From: a virus
Length of the DNA: 21,655 nt
IMG/VR virus record: IMGVR_UViG_3300022745_000154
Location: 1-21,655 of that record
Reading direction: 5' to 3' (one strand)
This document shows, piece after piece, positions 7,200 to 21,409 of this stretch. A program made the position numbers and the translations under genes. The notes beneath the pieces were generated by a model that saw only the letters and a list, made by a program, of their open reading frames with translations, made no database searches and was not told the origin of the DNA. Each line of letters starts with the position of its first letter. Within the stretch, counting starts at the first letter, position 1.

Positions 7200-7415
7200 A
7201 TGAGCGAAGTAACAAAAACAGTCGAAGAACTTACCGCAGAATACGAATCAGTTGCATCCGAACTGCATGAACTGGTTAAGCCAAAGAATCTTTCCTTGGT
7301 AGAGCGCGAAAGTATTAACGCCGGGCATCAGCCGATTTCTGAAAACGGCGTGAAATATAAAGAACTCCGCGCAAAGAAGAAAGAACTTATTTTGGCTATC
7401 GAATCGTCTAAATGA
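7200..7415 (+). CDS. Small coiled-coil protein, unknown
   Basis: This 71-residue acidic/basic helical protein was not recognised. Two predicted helices, VEELTAEYESVASELHELV (8-26) and a C-terminal one starting YKELRAKKKELILAI, have heptad-like spacing and flank a short loop with GHQPISENG. This suggests a helical hairpin or a small coiled coil. AAGGA (7187-7191) lies upstream of the ATG at a suitable distance. The stop overlaps the next start (ATGA at 7412-7415), tying it to the methyltransferase gene. It could be a small head accessory protein or a partner of the modifying enzymes downstream; nothing in the sequence decides. Confidence 0.7.
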   Translation: MSEVTKTVEELTAEYESVASELHELVKPKNLSLVERESINAGHQPISENGVKYKELRAKKKELILAIESSK

Positions 7416-7894
7416 CTAGAGACGATCTAGCCAACACTTTCAGCGGAATCGGCGTAGAACTCGGCGTTGCAGCCGGTGAATACTCCGAAACGATTCTAAA
7501 GAACGATTCGGTTCGATTGCTCTATTCGATTGATCGGTGGTCGGATCATCACGACGAACGCGAGTATCAGAAGGCGAAACAACGCCTTGCAAAGTACGGC
7601 GAACGCAGCCAGATCATTCGATCATCATTTGAAGATTTGATTGATGAGATTGATAACGGATTCTTCGACTTCATATACATCGATGCCTACGCACACACAG
7701 GCCAAAGCAATGGCCGATGGTTGCGTGAATGGTGGCCTAAGCTGAAACGTGGCGGGATATTCGCCGGGCATGATTACGACCCGCAATATCAGCAGACGAT
7801 TGAAGCGGTGGACGAGTTCGCGGCGTTGAATTGTCTGAACATTACGATCACTGACGAGCAGTATTTACCGAGTTGGTTTTGCGTGAAACCGTAA
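7412..7894 (+). CDS. Class I SAM-dependent methyltransferase
   Basis: This 160-residue protein has a compact Rossmann methyltransferase fold of the Methyltransf_24/macrocin-O-methyltransferase kind. Motif I is GVELGVAAGEYSE (13-25), the SAM-binding loop. YSIDRW (38-43) ends strand 2 with the acidic residue expected to hold the ribose. FDFIYIDAYAHTGQ (85-98) is strand 4. RGGIFAGHDYDP follows with the GHDY signature seen in small-molecule and sugar O-methyltransferases. It lacks the DPPY or NPPY motif of DNA adenine methyltransferases and the PC motif of cytosine enzymes, so DNA is not an obvious target. It overlaps the GPSL-motif gene by about 22 bases, and both lie within the structural operon, so a virion component may be the substrate. 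Confidence 0.85.
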   Translation: MTRDDLANTFSGIGVELGVAAGEYSETILKNDSVRLLYSIDRWSDHHDEREYQKAKQRLAKYGERSQIIRSSFEDLIDEIDNGFFDFIYIDAYAHTGQSNGRWLREWWPKLKRGGIFAGHDYDPQYQQTIEAVDEFAALNCLNITITDEQYLPSWFCVKP

Positions 7895-8406
7895 CAATCC
7901 TTTGCCCCGGCCCGTCGCTGGCAAACGCTCCGCAGGTTGATGGGATTGTCTACGGGATCAACCGTGCGGCGATTCTAAGACCCGTAACGCATTGGGTTGC
8001 ACTTGACTGGATCAGCGACTTGCCGGGCGGCGGTATCATCAATTGGGCTTTGCAGGTTCAGGGTTCGCCTGAACTTATCACCAGCAAGAACAGCAAAGAG
8101 TCATTACTTCGCAAGGGCTTCAAATGGCCTACTCCGATTACAGAGATCGAATCGAGTTGGAATTATCTCGATCCTCACAAAAACCGTTTTTCGATCTACT
8201 CCGCGACATCAGCACTTGTCTATGCCGCGAGCATGGGGGCAAAGCGAATCGACATCTACGGGATGACGATGGCGGGGACGCAGGACGCGGACGGTATTGT
8301 AGCGGGATACAACCGAACGCCGGCACGGTGGGAGATGGAATCGCAGATCGTATCGAACCTGATTGCAATACTTAACGAGCGTGGAATCGAAGTTAGAAGG
8401 AATTAA
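7873..8406 (+). CDS. GPSL-motif protein, DUF115/GT42-like fold
   Basis: About 177 residues. The N-terminus (VTILCPGPSLANAP) has the strand-loop 'GxGPSL' signature shared by DUF115 (MptE-like) proteins and GT42 sialyltransferases, where it binds a nucleotide or nucleotide-sugar phosphate. The C-terminal half has FSIYSATSALVYAASMGA followed by KRIDIYGMTMAG, which parallels the 'A...A...G...I...G.D' region of the same folds. A GYNRTPARWEME segment with charged, possibly catalytic residues follows. No ATG is available at the start: TTG at 7873 or 7879, inside the methyltransferase gene, is the likely initiation, probably by coupling. The adjoining methyltransferase suggests a two-enzyme modification step. 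Function is inferred from fold signatures only; glycosyltransferase and nucleotide-transferase are both open. Confidence 0.65.
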   Translation: MVLRETVTILCPGPSLANAPQVDGIVYGINRAAILRPVTHWVALDWISDLPGGGIINWALQVQGSPELITSKNSKESLLRKGFKWPTPITEIESSWNYLDPHKNRFSIYSATSALVYAASMGAKRIDIYGMTMAGTQDADGIVAGYNRTPARWEMESQIVSNLIAILNERGIEVRRN

Positions 8407-11278: not shown

Positions 11279-11719
11279 ATGCCAATTGCATTAGACCCGC
11301 AGGAAACCCGTCTATTTTGGTTAGACAGGGATAAGGATAAACCGTTATCGACTCGGCCCGTGTTTGAGTGTCGAGCGTTCAGCCGAAAAAAGCGTATTGA
11401 GTATCAACGGTTACGCGACGAGATCGCGGAACTAAAAGATGCAACACGCGAAAACGATCAGCGATTCGACGACTTGATTAAGAAGTCAATCGAGATGGGC
11501 GTTGTCGGCTGGAGAAACTTCGGGAAAGAGTACAGCTTCGACAACCTCGAAGATACGCTGACCGATCTTGAACTCATTGAACTTCACGCAGGCTGGCCGA
11601 CCGCCTTCGAGATAACGGACAAAGACCGAAAAAACTCGCAATCGCTGTTGCAATCCGATGCGGAAAACTCTGCAAAGGATGCACCAGCGGATGCAACGAC
11701 GACGAACGGCCAAGCGTAG
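11279..11719 (+). CDS. Tail assembly chaperone, short form (gpG-like)
   Basis: This 146-residue helical, charged protein lies between tube and tape measure. It has an N-terminal strand region (TRPVFECRAFSRKKRIEYQR), then a long helix (RLRDEIAELKDATRENDQRF) and an amphipathic C-terminal helix (DTLTDLELIELHAGW). In lambda, gpG of this position coats the tape measure during assembly. The final 27 residues (119-146) are Ser/Ala/Asp-rich and look disordered. These are the residues translated only when the ribosome does not slip at 11629-11635. AGGAG (11270-11274) lies close before the ATG. Confidence 0.82.
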   Translation: MPIALDPQETRLFWLDRDKDKPLSTRPVFECRAFSRKKRIEYQRLRDEIAELKDATRENDQRFDDLIKKSIEMGVVGWRNFGKEYSFDNLEDTLTDLELIELHAGWPTAFEITDKDRKNSQSLLQSDAENSAKDAPADATTTNGQA

Positions 11720-11985
11720 GCGAGCCGCTCTATCTCGATGTCGATTGCGAACATTGCAGCGGTAAAGGCTGCGAGCATTGCGACAACTCAGGTAAGGCGA
11801 CGGTCAGGGATTGCCCGAAGAAAATCACACCAATTGAAGTCTTTGAAATCTGCGAATTGTCAGACCTGGCAGACGATGGCAATTGGCCCGTAGGCAACGG
11901 CATCCTCAACGAATCCGATTCATTCATCAACGCACATCGAATCATTCAACACACCAAGAACAAGCTGCTAAAAAATGGCGGATAA
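11279..11985 (+). CDS. Tail assembly chaperone, -1 frameshift long form (gpGT-like) with cysteine clusters
   Basis: Slippage by -1 at A AAA AAC (11629-11635) joins residues 1-119 of the short form to a 116-residue extension, giving about 235 residues and ending at TAA 11983-11985. The -1 frame is open from 11581 to 11982, and has no ATG, GTG or TTG before about 11857, so it cannot be well expressed independently. The extension holds two four-cysteine clusters: C128, C132, C135, C139 (CGKLCKGCTSGC) and C157, C160, C165, C168 (CEHCSGKGCEHC), with C179 and C192 beyond. The second cluster reads as two CxxCxGxG-like repeats, the zinc-site pattern of the chaperone DnaJ. In lambda the T half binds the tube subunits and the G half the tape measure. 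The tape measure start overlaps this end by 11 bases. Confidence 0.87.
11629..11635 (+). promoter_or_regulatory. Slippery heptamer A AAA AAC, programmed -1 frameshift site
   Basis: The bases AAAAAAC are phased as A AAA AAC in the chaperone frame (codons CGA, AAA, AAC), fitting the X XXY YYZ rule. It is the only such site in the overlap of the two open frames (11581-11719). A weak stem, 11637-11644 with 11656-11662 (one bulged A), follows almost at once. It may be too close to act as a classic stimulator. Confidence 0.85.
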
Positions 11986-14203: not shown

Positions 14204-14652
14204 TGTCATACCAACTAACAGACAAAGACGTAGAAGTACTGAACCAAATGCGCAGCGATGTTACGTCGCTTGTGCGAAGGTTCGGCGGGAATCAGCCGCC
14301 AGGATCACCGCGATATTATCCCGGTCAAAATGACGGTGAACCGTTGCCGCCGTTGTATCCGATCTTGTTTAAGGTGACATCGAACGCTTCAGGCGGTGGA
14401 AAGTATAACGGAAAGGTCGTGTACGGCGCATCATCTGCATCTGCGTCTGGTAACTTGGCCGAGTCCGATTTCGGAACGGTTCACACGAGCGAAACGATTC
14501 TCGCCTTAAATGTTCGCGAGGTCGGGAAGTCAACGCATGACGTGAGCAGCAGCACGTATTTGCCGCTGGTATTTCTCGGGATCGTTATAGGATTGAACAC
14601 AAGCGGCAGTATTATCGTCGCCTTCGACGGTATGCAGTGGCAGGACTGCTAA
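14203..14652 (+). CDS. Tail-end protein with proline/glycine-rich N-terminus, unknown
   Basis: This 149-residue protein was not recognised. It has a short N-terminal helix (DKDVEVLNQMRSDVTSLVRR), a Pro/Gly/Tyr-rich linker (NQPPGSPRYYPGQNDGEPLP), then a beta domain (YPILFKVTSNASGGGKYNGK; later LPLVFLGIVIGLNTSGSIIV). The linker-plus-barrel layout is often seen in phage proteins that bridge the tail tip to a small receptor-binding domain. It is joined to both neighbours by TAATG overlaps and is likely co-translated with them. The helix could be an attachment or trimerisation segment, which is inference. Confidence 0.68.
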   Translation: MSYQLTDKDVEVLNQMRSDVTSLVRRFGGNQPPGSPRYYPGQNDGEPLPPLYPILFKVTSNASGGGKYNGKVVYGASSASASGNLAESDFGTVHTSETILALNVREVGKSTHDVSSSTYLPLVFLGIVIGLNTSGSIIVAFDGMQWQDC

Positions 14653-15230
14653 TGGCATCAGTAGACGGAAAAGCATCACGAAACATTCTCGGCAAATTAT
14701 ATCGCGAAACAGATGCAACTCGCGGCGGACGCACGGTCAGGCAGAAAACGACCTGCGATCGGTGCGGGTGCGGTTGCTGCGAAGGAACAAGGCCGACGAG
14801 TTTTACCATCACGGTTAGCGGCGTAACAAATTGCGACTGCTCAACAGCTATCGCCAGCGTTTCTGGCGATGTTAATGGAACTTATGATGTTCCATACGCA
14901 AGTTTTAATGGTGGTTTGGGTTCAAAAACTGGGCAATGCACATACAATTATACCATCCCCGGCTTGACCTATACTCTCTGTGCTGCGCCGTTCACTGTTT
15001 ACAACGTAAAATTGACTTTGCGAATGGTAAACTCTGGTTCTGGAACAGTAGTTGAAATGCTTGACACGACAAGCGGAGCTATTCGTTCAATCGCCGTGAC
15101 ATTCTCTACTGGTCGATTGTGTACTGACAGATCGGCTTCAGGATCAACATCACACACAATTTGCGGAAGCGAATCATTTCACGAAAACGTAGGAACAGGC
15201 GGAACGATCTCAGTAACGCCTAACTTCTAA
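14652..15230 (+). CDS. Cys-rich tail-end protein, unknown
   Basis: This 192-residue protein starts at the ATG at 14652, which overlaps the previous stop in the same TAATG style as its neighbours; a GTG at 14637 is less likely. A basic N-terminal helix (KASRNILGKLYRETDATRGG) leads into a dense cysteine cluster (CDRCGCGCCEG, residues about 35-45), then a Thr/Gly/Ser-rich beta domain opening with PTSFTITVSGVTNCDCS. Eleven cysteines in all suggest metal binding by the cluster and possible disulfides or metal sites in the domain. The pattern (cysteine knot-like cluster, 'tvsGvtn', then paired strands) looks like a structural or adhesin domain at the tail end. I do not recognise a named family. Confidence 0.72.
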   Translation: MASVDGKASRNILGKLYRETDATRGGRTVRQKTTCDRCGCGCCEGTRPTSFTITVSGVTNCDCSTAIASVSGDVNGTYDVPYASFNGGLGSKTGQCTYNYTIPGLTYTLCAAPFTVYNVKLTLRMVNSGSGTVVEMLDTTSGAIRSIAVTFSTGRLCTDRSASGSTSHTICGSESFHENVGTGGTISVTPNF

Positions 15231-15466
15231 TGCTAATCCAAATCTGCCATAGATGCCCATTTAGGCAAAGACCATGCTCAGGGAAATGCTTGTGCGATGG
15301 TATCGACATAATGGAACGTGCAAAAAATAACGATTGCCCAAAAGGTTACTTTGATGGGCCGCTTACACGCAAGCCAATGTTTAACGAAACAGAGTTTGAT
15401 CCTCTTGACGATGTTAAACGAGATATAAACCGTGGCGGCTGTGGATGCTCAGCCCCGAAGGAATAG
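15230..15466 (+). CDS. Small Cys-rich protein, probable zinc-binding, unknown
   Basis: This 78-residue protein carries cysteines at 6, 9, 16, 20, 22, 36, 71 and 73. The first five, plus C36, form a plausible metal site: CHRCPFRQRPCSGKCLC, then a short helix (IDIMERAKNNDC) and PKGYF. The layout recalls small treble-clef or knuckle domains. The C-terminus ends GGCGCSAPKE, echoing the CGCGCC motif of the preceding protein. It is the last gene of the late operon. Its start overlaps the previous stop, and its stop lies at the foot of the terminator hairpin. It might be a tail-tip metal-binding subunit or a regulator; nothing decides. Confidence 0.72.
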   Translation: MLIQICHRCPFRQRPCSGKCLCDGIDIMERAKNNDCPKGYFDGPLTRKPMFNETEFDPLDDVKRDINRGGCGCSAPKE

Positions 15467-19059: not shown

Positions 19060-19281
19060 ATGAACCTGACCCGCAAACAAATCATCAGAGACATCGAGGA
19101 CGGTGTGACGTTCGAGCATGTTACGAAGTACTGCTCAGAGTCGTCGATTCTCAAAGCGGTGATTGCCTATTACGGGTTGGAACTTATCGAAATGGCCGAG
19201 GACAAGTACGGCGAGGCGTTTAAGGAAATGATCGTTGATCGGTTGGGGCGTGAGTGTGAGGAAAGGATGAAAGACCTATGA
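19060..19281 (+). CDS. Small acidic protein upstream of the RecE-like gene, unknown
   Basis: This 73-residue mostly helical protein (TRKQIIRDIEDGVTFEHVTK; YYGLELIEMAEDKYGEAFKE) is acidic overall. The ATG at 19060 has no ribosome site: the upstream bases TTTTTAATT are the terminator tail. A leaderless or near-leaderless message or a downstream start is possible. Its stop overlaps the RecE-like start by 4 bases (ATGA), which links it to the recombination cassette. Not recognised. DNA-mimic or nuclease-partner roles are conceivable but have no direct support. Confidence 0.65.
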   Translation: MNLTRKQIIRDIEDGVTFEHVTKYCSESSILKAVIAYYGLELIEMAEDKYGEAFKEMIVDRLGRECEERMKDL

Positions 19282-20135
19282 AAAATGGAGTATACAACGG
19301 GCTTGGCATGGAAGCCTATTCGCAGATTGAGGCGTTAAACTTCTCAAAGCTGAAGAAGTTGCTTGACCCGAAGCAATGTCCGTACAACGTGCGATATGGT
19401 CGTCAGGCAGAGCCAGGCGATGCGATGAAGATGGGAACGGCGGTTCATGCGTGGTGCTTGGAGCGTCAGAACTTTGGCAACATCGTCTATGTTTCGCAGA
19501 ACCATGACGGACGCACAACGGTTGGGAAAGCGGCTAAGGCGCAGGCGTTGATTGACTCGGCAGGCAAAACGCTGATCGACTATGCTCAATTCGATCTGGT
19601 TAAAGCGATGGCCCAAGCGATCCAGAACAATCTTGATTGCCGCAAACTGGCAAAGACCAAAGGCGAGGTCGAGGAAGTTATCGTTTTCACGGACGAGAAA
19701 ACCGGCATGACCTGCAAGTGCAAGGCTGATAAACGGATCGGGAATATCGCACTCGACCTGAAAACAACGCGGGCAAAGAGCGACGACGACTTTGCCGAAG
19801 AAGTCTACAACAACAACTATCACGCACAGGCGGCTTATTACGTCGCGGCATACGCTGCGGCTGGAATCAAGATAGATCAATTCTGGTTCTTGGCCGTGAA
19901 CAACGACGATCTGAAGAACGTCGAAGCATTGGGCATGGAACGATACGCAGGCACGTTGCTGGTAACAGAAGATTGGCTGCGGGCTGGCGAACTGCTCTGC
20001 CGCTATCTCTTAGACACTTGGCACGGCTACGAATCGTCCGCGACGTGGCCGAAATACAACCAGAACGGGCGCAATCTGCCCGAAACATACCGGCTGCGAA
20101 AACAACTCGAAACACTTACGCAAGGAGCTATGTAA
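19278..20135 (+). CDS. RecE-like PD-(D/E)XK exonuclease
   Basis: This 285-residue protein belongs to the exonuclease VIII/RecE-like group (PF12684 type) that degrades one strand of duplex ends so an annealing protein can pair the other. The domain shows GTAVHAWCLE (53-62) with His57, CKCKADKRIG (146-155) with Asp151, ALDLKTTRAKSDDDF (158-172) with the D160-x-K162 pair, and YHAQAAYYVAAY (181-192) with Gln184. These form the expected H...D...DxK...Q active site. The nearby RecT-type and SSB genes complete a classic two-component phage recombination system. Its stop overlaps the membrane protein start (TAATG). Confidence 0.9.
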   Translation: MKNGVYNGLGMEAYSQIEALNFSKLKKLLDPKQCPYNVRYGRQAEPGDAMKMGTAVHAWCLERQNFGNIVYVSQNHDGRTTVGKAAKAQALIDSAGKTLIDYAQFDLVKAMAQAIQNNLDCRKLAKTKGEVEEVIVFTDEKTGMTCKCKADKRIGNIALDLKTTRAKSDDDFAEEVYNNNYHAQAAYYVAAYAAAGIKIDQFWFLAVNNDDLKNVEALGMERYAGTLLVTEDWLRAGELLCRYLLDTWHGYESSATWPKYNQNGRNLPETYRLRKQLETLTQGAM

Positions 20136-20329
20136 TGTCAGACAGAAATAGTACTAGCAGTGGCGGAATCGGATTCTGCGGCCTGCTCGCAATACTGTTT
20201 ATCGCCCTAAAACTATGCTCGGTTATCGACTGGTCTTGGTGGTGGGTGCTATCTCCGGTATGGATTCCTCTAATCATCTTTCTGATCGTTTTATCAATCT
20301 TAATTTTTGCAATCAAACCTTGGAGATAA
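20135..20329 (+). CDS. Small two-helix membrane protein, Fragile-X-F-like
   Basis: This 64-residue protein has two membrane segments, about 11-29 (GIGFCGLLAILFIALKL) and 37-60 (WVLSPVWIPLIIFLIVL), joined by a Trp-rich turn (VIDWSWWWV). The WSWWWV..P.WIP pattern resembles the small phage proteins annotated as transmembrane Fragile-X-F. The start at 20135 overlaps the RecE-like stop, and AAGGAG (20122-20127) lies 7 bases upstream. A small holin is the other reading, but the place inside a recombination operon argues against it. Cysteines at 15 and 28 are within or near the first helix. Confidence 0.7.
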   Translation: MSDRNSTSSGGIGFCGLLAILFIALKLCSVIDWSWWWVLSPVWIPLIIFLIVLSILIFAIKPWR

Positions 20330-20330
20330 T

Positions 20331-20984
20331 ATGACAACAGAACTAACGACAATTGAACCGCAGGCCGTGGAACACGCATTGCCTTCAATCGTCAGCAACT
20401 TACCGGCGATGAAAGAATACGCCGACATCGTTATCAAGTCGGGGCTTATCCCGCGTGGACTGGATACTCCCGAAAAGCTGATCGTCGCAATGGCGTGCGG
20501 ACGTTCTATCGGTCTTGACGAATCTCAATCGGTTCGCGGGATCATGGTCGTCAACAATCGGCCCTGCGTTTGGGGCGACATTGCAATGATGCTGGTTCAG
20601 CGTTCACCGGCTTGTCTCAGCATCAGCGAACGAATCGAGAAGGGCGAGGACGGTGAACCAGTCGCATATTGCACTGGCCGACGCAAGCGGGTTGGCGGTG
20701 AGATTGACGAACAGACAAGGACGTTTTCGCTCGCCCAGGCCAAGCGTGCGGGGCTATTGGATAAGACAGGCCCATGGAAGCAGTACACGGCGCGGATGCT
20801 GCAAATGCGTGCGCGTGGATTCCTGCTTCGCGATTTGTTTCCCGACCTGCTCAACGGAATGAGCGTGGTTGACCGCGAAGAATATGCAGCCGAAACAACA
20901 ACACAAATCAAAGTCGAACAGGTACAGCAGCCAGTGTTGGCTCTGCCTGATCCAGACGAAGTTATCGAAACGGAGAACAAATAA
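20331..20984 (+). CDS. RecT-family single-strand annealing protein
   Basis: This 217-residue protein resembles the phage RecT-type annealing family found beside RecE-like nucleases. Visible signature stretches are GLDESQSVRGIMVVNNRPCV with WGDIAMMLVQRSP (61-93), FSLAQAKRAGLLDKTGPWKQ (132-151), then YTARMLQMRARGFLLRDLFP (152-171). The middle and last parts match the 'fs..dA..AgL..k.gpW..yp.rml..Ra...' block common to these proteins. The C-terminal 35 residues are acidic and likely disordered. It should bind ssDNA from the nuclease and anneal complementary strands during replication or repair. The ATG at 20331 has GGAG at 20322-20325. Its stop overlaps the SSB start. Confidence 0.85.
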   Translation: MTTELTTIEPQAVEHALPSIVSNLPAMKEYADIVIKSGLIPRGLDTPEKLIVAMACGRSIGLDESQSVRGIMVVNNRPCVWGDIAMMLVQRSPACLSISERIEKGEDGEPVAYCTGRRKRVGGEIDEQTRTFSLAQAKRAGLLDKTGPWKQYTARMLQMRARGFLLRDLFPDLLNGMSVVDREEYAAETTTQIKVEQVQQPVLALPDPDEVIETENK

Positions 20985-21409
20985 TGGCAGACTACAACAA
21001 AGTGATATTGATGGGAAAATTGACTCGCGATCCAGAATTGAAATACACGCAGAGCCAAATCGCAATTTGCACCTGCGGCATCGCGGCATCCGAAAAGTTT
21101 ACCGATGCAAGCGGACAAAAACGCGAAAAGACTTGTTTCATTGATCTGATTATCTGGAAACAGAAAGCAGAATCTTTTCAGAAGTTTTTTCAAAAAGGAA
21201 ATCCCGTATTGATTGAAGGAAAGATCAACCACGAAACATGGGAAGATAAAAACGGCGGAGGAAAGCGATCAAAGCATAGCATCACCGTAGAGAGCTTTAC
21301 GTTTGTCGGCGGCGGAAAGAAGGATGGTAATGCGGAACAAGCAGAACGCAAAACTGAAGTTGGCGGGATTCCTGCTGAAGAAGTAGACCCGGCTGACATC
21401 CCATTTTGA
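20984..21409 (+). CDS. ssb: Single-stranded DNA-binding protein
   Basis: This 141-residue protein is a clear SSB. The OB-fold (about 1-105) opens with NKVILMGKLTRDPELKYT and includes the ekfTDASGQKREKTCFIDL stretch and NPVLIEGKINHETWEDKNG. A disordered acidic linker leads to the C-terminal tip DPADIPF (135-141), the DxxxIPF-type peptide that recruits replication and repair partners. It ends a tightly overlapped nuclease, membrane protein, annealing protein and SSB block. It probably coats ssDNA during phage replication and recombination, and interacts with host proteins through the tip. Confidence 0.97.
   Translation: MADYNKVILMGKLTRDPELKYTQSQIAICTCGIAASEKFTDASGQKREKTCFIDLIIWKQKAESFQKFFQKGNPVLIEGKINHETWEDKNGGGKRSKHSITVESFTFVGGGKKDGNAEQAERKTEVGGIPAEEVDPADIPF

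Follow-up and report, generated by a model that had tools for sequence, protein, structure and literature searches.

A -1 frame extension of a phage tail assembly chaperone with eight conserved cysteines that probably hold two zinc ions

In the tail gene cluster of a virus record from IMG/VR, the gene between the tail tube and tape measure genes carries a -1 slippery heptamer that leads into a conserved, cysteine-rich open frame. We consider it likely that the two frames encode a pair of the lambda gpG/gpGT type, in which the extension would recruit the tail tube protein and be held together by two zinc ions. The analysis covered the whole linear record of 21,655 bases (IMGVR_UViG_3300022745_000154, hereafter the window). 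The extension belongs to a widespread zinc-type family that appears to be previously undescribed; a search of the open-access literature turned up no account of a GT extension that binds zinc.

A candidate gpG/gpGT-type pair in a lambda-type tail module

Library matches place a lambda-type head-tail module in the window, comprising a gpA terminase, a lambda-type portal, an S49 protease, a Mu gpT-like capsid protein, a gpZ-like protein and a tail tube protein. Homologues of the latter are annotated as 'tail tube protein' in Agrobacterium phage JP1 and in RcWaterboi. The order of genes is tube, chaperone, -1 extension and tape measure (Table 1), and relatives have the same synteny, most of them with a similarly tight junction between extension and tape measure gene. 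The tape measure reading frame has no family match of its own. Elsewhere in the window, a SAM methyltransferase (Methyltransf_24) and a partner gene lie in an unusual location between the capsid and tail genes (7412-8406), two more small cysteine-containing proteins without a Pfam match are encoded downstream of the tape measure gene (14637-15466), and a recombination-like cassette at 19278-21409 consists of a PDDEXK-like DUF3799 protein, a 225-aa protein and an SSB.

Table 1. Features of the tail chaperone locus, in window coordinates. Residue numbers are those of the fusion product.
Feature	Position	Strand	Remarks
Tail tube protein, 311 aa	10328..11263	+	PHROG 290 tail, E 3.5e-13; likely partner of the extension
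Zero-frame product, gpG-like tail assembly chaperone, 146 aa	11279..11719	+	Between tube and tape measure; chaperone profile match
-1 slippery heptamer A AAA AAC	11629..11635	+	In the zero frame of the ORF starting at 11279
-1 frame extension, 116 aa, fusion residues 120-235	11635..11985 (including stop codon)	+	Open frame without start; conserved family
RNA stem-loop, candidate frameshift stimulator	11638..11694	+	Begins 2 nt past the slip site, main stem 6 nt past
Proposed zinc site 1: C132, C135, C139, C179	11671..11814 (codon starts 11671, 11680, 11692, 11812)	+	Invariant in 29/29 extensions
Proposed zinc site 2: DnaJ-type hairpin C157xxC160xGxG-C165xxC168	11746..11781	+	Invariant in 27 extensions with the insert
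Segment G-x-LP-x-x-GG-x-LDQ, conserved family-wide	11878..11919	+	Reads GNWPVGNGILNES in the window; hhalign
Tape measure gene, 430 aa	11975..13267	+	Assigned by position; overlaps the extension end by 11 nt

The identity of the zero-frame product rests on profile comparison and position. Profile-profile alignment with the chaperones of phages S-CBS1, S-LBS1, RC1 and RcWaterboi gave an hhalign probability of 93.7%, and its relatives match PHROG tail assembly chaperone families weakly; single-sequence library matches are also weak. A structure model of the chaperone is alpha/beta (pLDDT 82.9), and a fold search with it returned no significant match. The locus has these features of a gpG/gpGT pair: a position between tube and tape measure, an in-frame heptamer near the end of the reading frame, and chaperone homology.

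Tail chaperones are well known for programmed frameshifting. The T parts have diverged so far that many lack annotation, and the way in which the T part of gpGT brings in tube subunits remains, to our knowledge, poorly understood. According to a review (PMC5009743), the lambda tape measure is coated with gpG, and tube protein is recruited through the T part of the rare gpGT. The window resembles lambda in gene order, in the slip site near the end of the chaperone, in the overlapping extension and, we infer, in a low-level -1 shift. It differs in using A AAA AAC rather than the lambda site and in having an eight-cysteine domain as its extension, and there is no sequence match to the lambda families.

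From 11581 onwards the -1 frame meets no stop codon until 11983-11985, nor any ATG, GTG or TTG before 11857, which is past every cysteine that an earlier, preliminary description of this sequence had named. That description had proposed an in-frame A AAA AAC leading into an open -1 frame with no usable start, and reading the frames confirms it; slippage would extend the product from 146 to 235 aa. The stem-loop behind the heptamer (-31.3 kcal/mol, z -4.56) was equalled in stability by none of 200 shuffled sequences, and probably aids the shift. Such stem-loops are not uniform among relatives, and many of these have runs of eight or nine A instead.

By analogy with lambda, most ribosomes would produce the 146-aa chaperone, in the role of gpG, while a minority would slip by -1 on A AAA AAC and produce the 235-aa fusion, in the role of gpGT. 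The chaperone part would then coat the tape measure protein, and the extension would recruit tail tube subunits and so start tube polymerisation.

Slip site and extension recur in related loci

The zero-frame ORF alone has no close relative in IMG/VR. A search with the extension found one relative there (L002), 33-37% identical, with an identical gene order and an in-frame A AAA AAG of its own. We also searched IMG/VR for tail tubes, without reference to the extension sequence. This search returned 72 loci; because its patterns were taken from the tube proteins of the window and L002, it samples only their side of the tube family. Eight loci end too early to be scored, and all 64 with sufficient sequence have a slip site followed by a cysteine-rich -1 extension. 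In 63 of these the arrangement is at the expected place (in L039 the contig ends within the extension), while in the remaining locus, L016, it is one gene further along, with a stop codon abutting a run of nine A. Anchoring the search on the extension instead, we found relatives encoded in at least 166 viral stretches. Scans of GTDB genomes with the extension or the tube as query gave no matches.

Checking homologues for unconserved cysteines or stops in the -1 frame, we found the cysteines conserved and an A-run slip site in register in all 138 loci with an eight-cysteine extension. Together with the window, these loci hold 74 distinct extensions, which form 27 clusters at 70% identity and 13 at 50%. 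Past the zero-frame stop, substitutions at codon positions 1, 2 and 3 of the -1 frame number 3787, 2779 and 8561, and the excess is already present in the overlap immediately past the slip, before the zero frame closes (1897 third-position substitutions against 561 and 137). Judged by these substitution patterns, coding selection acts on the -1 frame. Away from the slip site, lysine codons are divided evenly between AAG and AAA (428:424), but the slip run never departs from A. Conservation and the excess of third-position substitutions rule out a chance ORF. A homopolymer sequencing error is ruled out as well, as runs of six to nine A all preserve the same -1 relation, including in isolate genomes. 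The recurrence of slip site and extension across homologous loci thus supports the slippage-dependent, gpGT-like chaperone put forward in the preliminary description.

Alternatively, translation of the second part might start independently, by internal initiation or through translational coupling, and yield a small free-standing protein instead of a fusion. Public annotations do give it a gene of its own, and 45 of the 74 distinct extensions have an ATG, GTG or TTG downstream of the last -1 stop and ahead of the first conserved cysteine. However, the other 29, the window among them, have no such codon, a -1-frame stop lies directly upstream of the slip run in 105 of the 138 loci, the run is always retained, and conserved residues begin immediately past it. 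We therefore regard a separate protein as very unlikely.

A fusion could also arise by slippage of RNA polymerase, rather than the ribosome, on the A-run. Runs of eight or nine A, sufficient for transcriptional slippage, occur in 123 of the 138 loci. Against this, the run in the window is only six A followed by C, related extensions are entered at GGGAAAC in phages L338C and RHph_I4 and at AAAAAAC in P24, JP1 and RcZahn, and the strong stem-loop of the window is what one would expect of a ribosomal stimulator. Polymerase slippage thus seems a poor explanation, and ribosomal slippage the better one.

Eight conserved cysteines and two proposed zinc sites

Eight cysteines (C132, C135, C139, C157, C160, C165, C168 and C179) are invariant in 27 diverse extensions. 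The preliminary description had grouped the cysteines into two clusters of four. Its second cluster (residues 157-172) stood, but its first, C128/C132/C135/C139, did not: C128 differs between relatives, and the conserved fourth cysteine is C179, which it had not listed. The corrected set, site 1, was scored in 29 extensions, which include the four-cysteine extensions of phages P24 and JP1.

Residues C157-G172 read CEHCSGKG CEHCDNSG, an exact CxxCxGxG unit followed by CxxCxxxG, as the preliminary description had reported. An exact CxxCxGxG makes up the first unit in 58 of 75 distinct extensions; in relatives the second is mostly CxxCxxG. The two CxxC pairs are 4-14 residues apart, with a spacing of four in 60 of the 75.

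Spacings such as CxxCxGxG and CxxC-x4-CxxC fit known structural zinc knuckles. On the basis of this spacing, the invariance of the residues and the comparison with known knuckles, the eight cysteines probably hold two zinc ions, one per site. The extension would then be a compact domain in which the site 2 hairpin interrupts site 1 after its third ligand and before its fourth, with a helical C-terminal part after the zinc sites. An AlphaFold2 model computed without zinc (pLDDT 79, pTM 0.68) starts with a helix, forms a two-stranded hairpin where site 2 lies and ends in helices; it is least sure near extension residues 11-30 (block pLDDT 55-70).

Iron, or redox-active disulphides, could take the place of structural zinc, since four-cysteine zinc sites and rubredoxin-type iron sites look alike in sequence and eight cysteines could pair. 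We think this unlikely: the spacing suits zinc knuckles, the best profile match to a solved structure is the zinc knuckle of PheRS alpha, and assembly presumably takes place in the cytoplasm, which disfavours disulphides.

Resemblance to the DnaJ zinc domain

The preliminary description had suggested a zinc centre of DnaJ type borrowed by the chaperone. What holds of this is the resemblance: site 2 is, by its motif, a zinc hairpin of a type also used by DnaJ and Anti-TRAP, and shares the CxxCxGxG...CxxC pattern with DnaJ (PF00684), Anti-TRAP and the PheRS alpha knuckle. Descent from DnaJ found no such support. The window extension has no Pfam match and hence none to PF00684, and the profile search yielded only a sub-threshold match in one of 29 members (E 0.0045; 17.7 bits, where the cut-off is 32.7). 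Comparing the extension profile with E. coli DnaJ, hhalign gave a probability of 36% over 13 columns. Fold searches with the extension model returned no significant match, and PheRS and Anti-TRAP top the insignificant ones.

The architecture differs too. DnaJ has four CxxCxGxG motifs, two zinc sites and long spacers, whereas the window has one exact and one degenerate unit in a single hairpin inserted into another proposed zinc site, whose own cysteines (C132, C135, C139 and C179) form no CxxCxGxG. That the domain was captured from DnaJ could be argued from the frequency of exact CxxCxGxG units and from L019, which combines DnaJ-like spacing with a weak PF00684 match. Since the DnaJ matches are weak, PheRS alpha is the best solved-structure match and the fold matches are insignificant, we see no ground for DnaJ descent; the presumed ancestral extension, moreover, has only the non-DnaJ site 1. 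Such a capture is highly improbable, and resemblance of the hairpin is the reading we retain.

Cultured phages with a single four-cysteine site

The window extension has no convincing Pfam, PHROG or NCBIfam family match. Relatives with four cysteines occur in six cultured phages: Alteromonas phage P24, Agrobacterium phage JP1, Rhodobacter phages RcTiptonus and RcZahn, and Rhizobium phages L338C and RHph_I4. These keep only the equivalents of C132, C135, C139 and C179 and lack the second hairpin. Profiles of the eight- and four-cysteine extensions align with an hhalign probability of 97.6% (E 3.5e-12), resting on CP and the LP-GG segment. They share the C-x2-C...C...CP site, the LP-GG-Q segment and a slip site in register, which in the four-cysteine group is AAAAAAC, AAAAAAG or GGGAAAC. 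The family pattern is CxxC-x(2-9)-C ... CP ... LP-x2-GG-x-LDQ with entry by -1 slippage; the window conforms to it, retaining the cysteines and CP and reading WPVGNGILNE in the LP-GG-LDQ part. In the cultured phages these extensions are annotated as hypothetical or as tail assembly chaperones, with no mention of zinc or frameshifting.

The simplest reading is that the four-cysteine site is ancestral and the CxxC-x4-CxxC hairpin was inserted later. By this comparison of extensions, site 1 is older than site 2 and is not DnaJ-like.

The family signature also helps to find frameshifts where they have been reported missing. For RcZahn, no clear evidence of a frameshift was reported (PMC8601537). 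At 1456-1872 of its locus (L094, MW677529.1), the heptamer A AAA AAC is in frame and leads into a -1 extension from the four-cysteine family, which suggests that RcZahn does carry the frameshift arrangement, contrary to that report.

An apparently unrelated extension in the same position

Phages S-CBS1, S-LBS1, RC1 and RcWaterboi, with a homologous chaperone and a related tube protein, have an extension of the DUF1799 type (PF08809 / PHROG 680) in the same slot. This too is entered by -1 slippage, at AAAAAAC or GGGAAAC, but it has no cysteine clusters. S-CBS1 and others match the DUF1799 profile, whereas the window extension does not, and hhalign of the window extension against DUF1799-type extensions gave 0.3%. 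The comparison with known phage GT extensions proposed in the preliminary description therefore yielded no relationship to this type. Since there is no detectable similarity between the two, the tube-binding role proposed for the window extension rests on its position. Homologous chaperones with dissimilar extensions imply that the T slot accepts more than one type of domain, at least two of them apparently unrelated as far as profile comparison can tell.

On balance, we lean towards a widespread, as yet unnamed family of T domains that depend on metal and have one (ancestral) or two (derived) zinc sites; behind homologous chaperones, cassettes of this kind would be exchanged for the unrelated DUF1799-type T. 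If so, tail assembly would be metal-dependent in phages with zinc-type T domains. With a recognisable core in the viral stretches counted above and in cultured Rhodobacter, Rhizobium and Agrobacterium phages, the family offers a tractable structural target.

In six of the loci inspected (L083-L086, L088 and L091; phages S-LBS1, S-CBS1, S-CBS3, RC1, ThpS-P1 and RcWaterboi), a short ORF that precedes the tape measure gene is the DUF1799-type -1 extension of the chaperone, entered at AAAAAAC or GGGAAAC. This ORF is annotated as hypothetical or, in cases such as S-CBS1, S-CBS3, RC1 and the PHROG 680 family, as 'tail length tape measure protein'.
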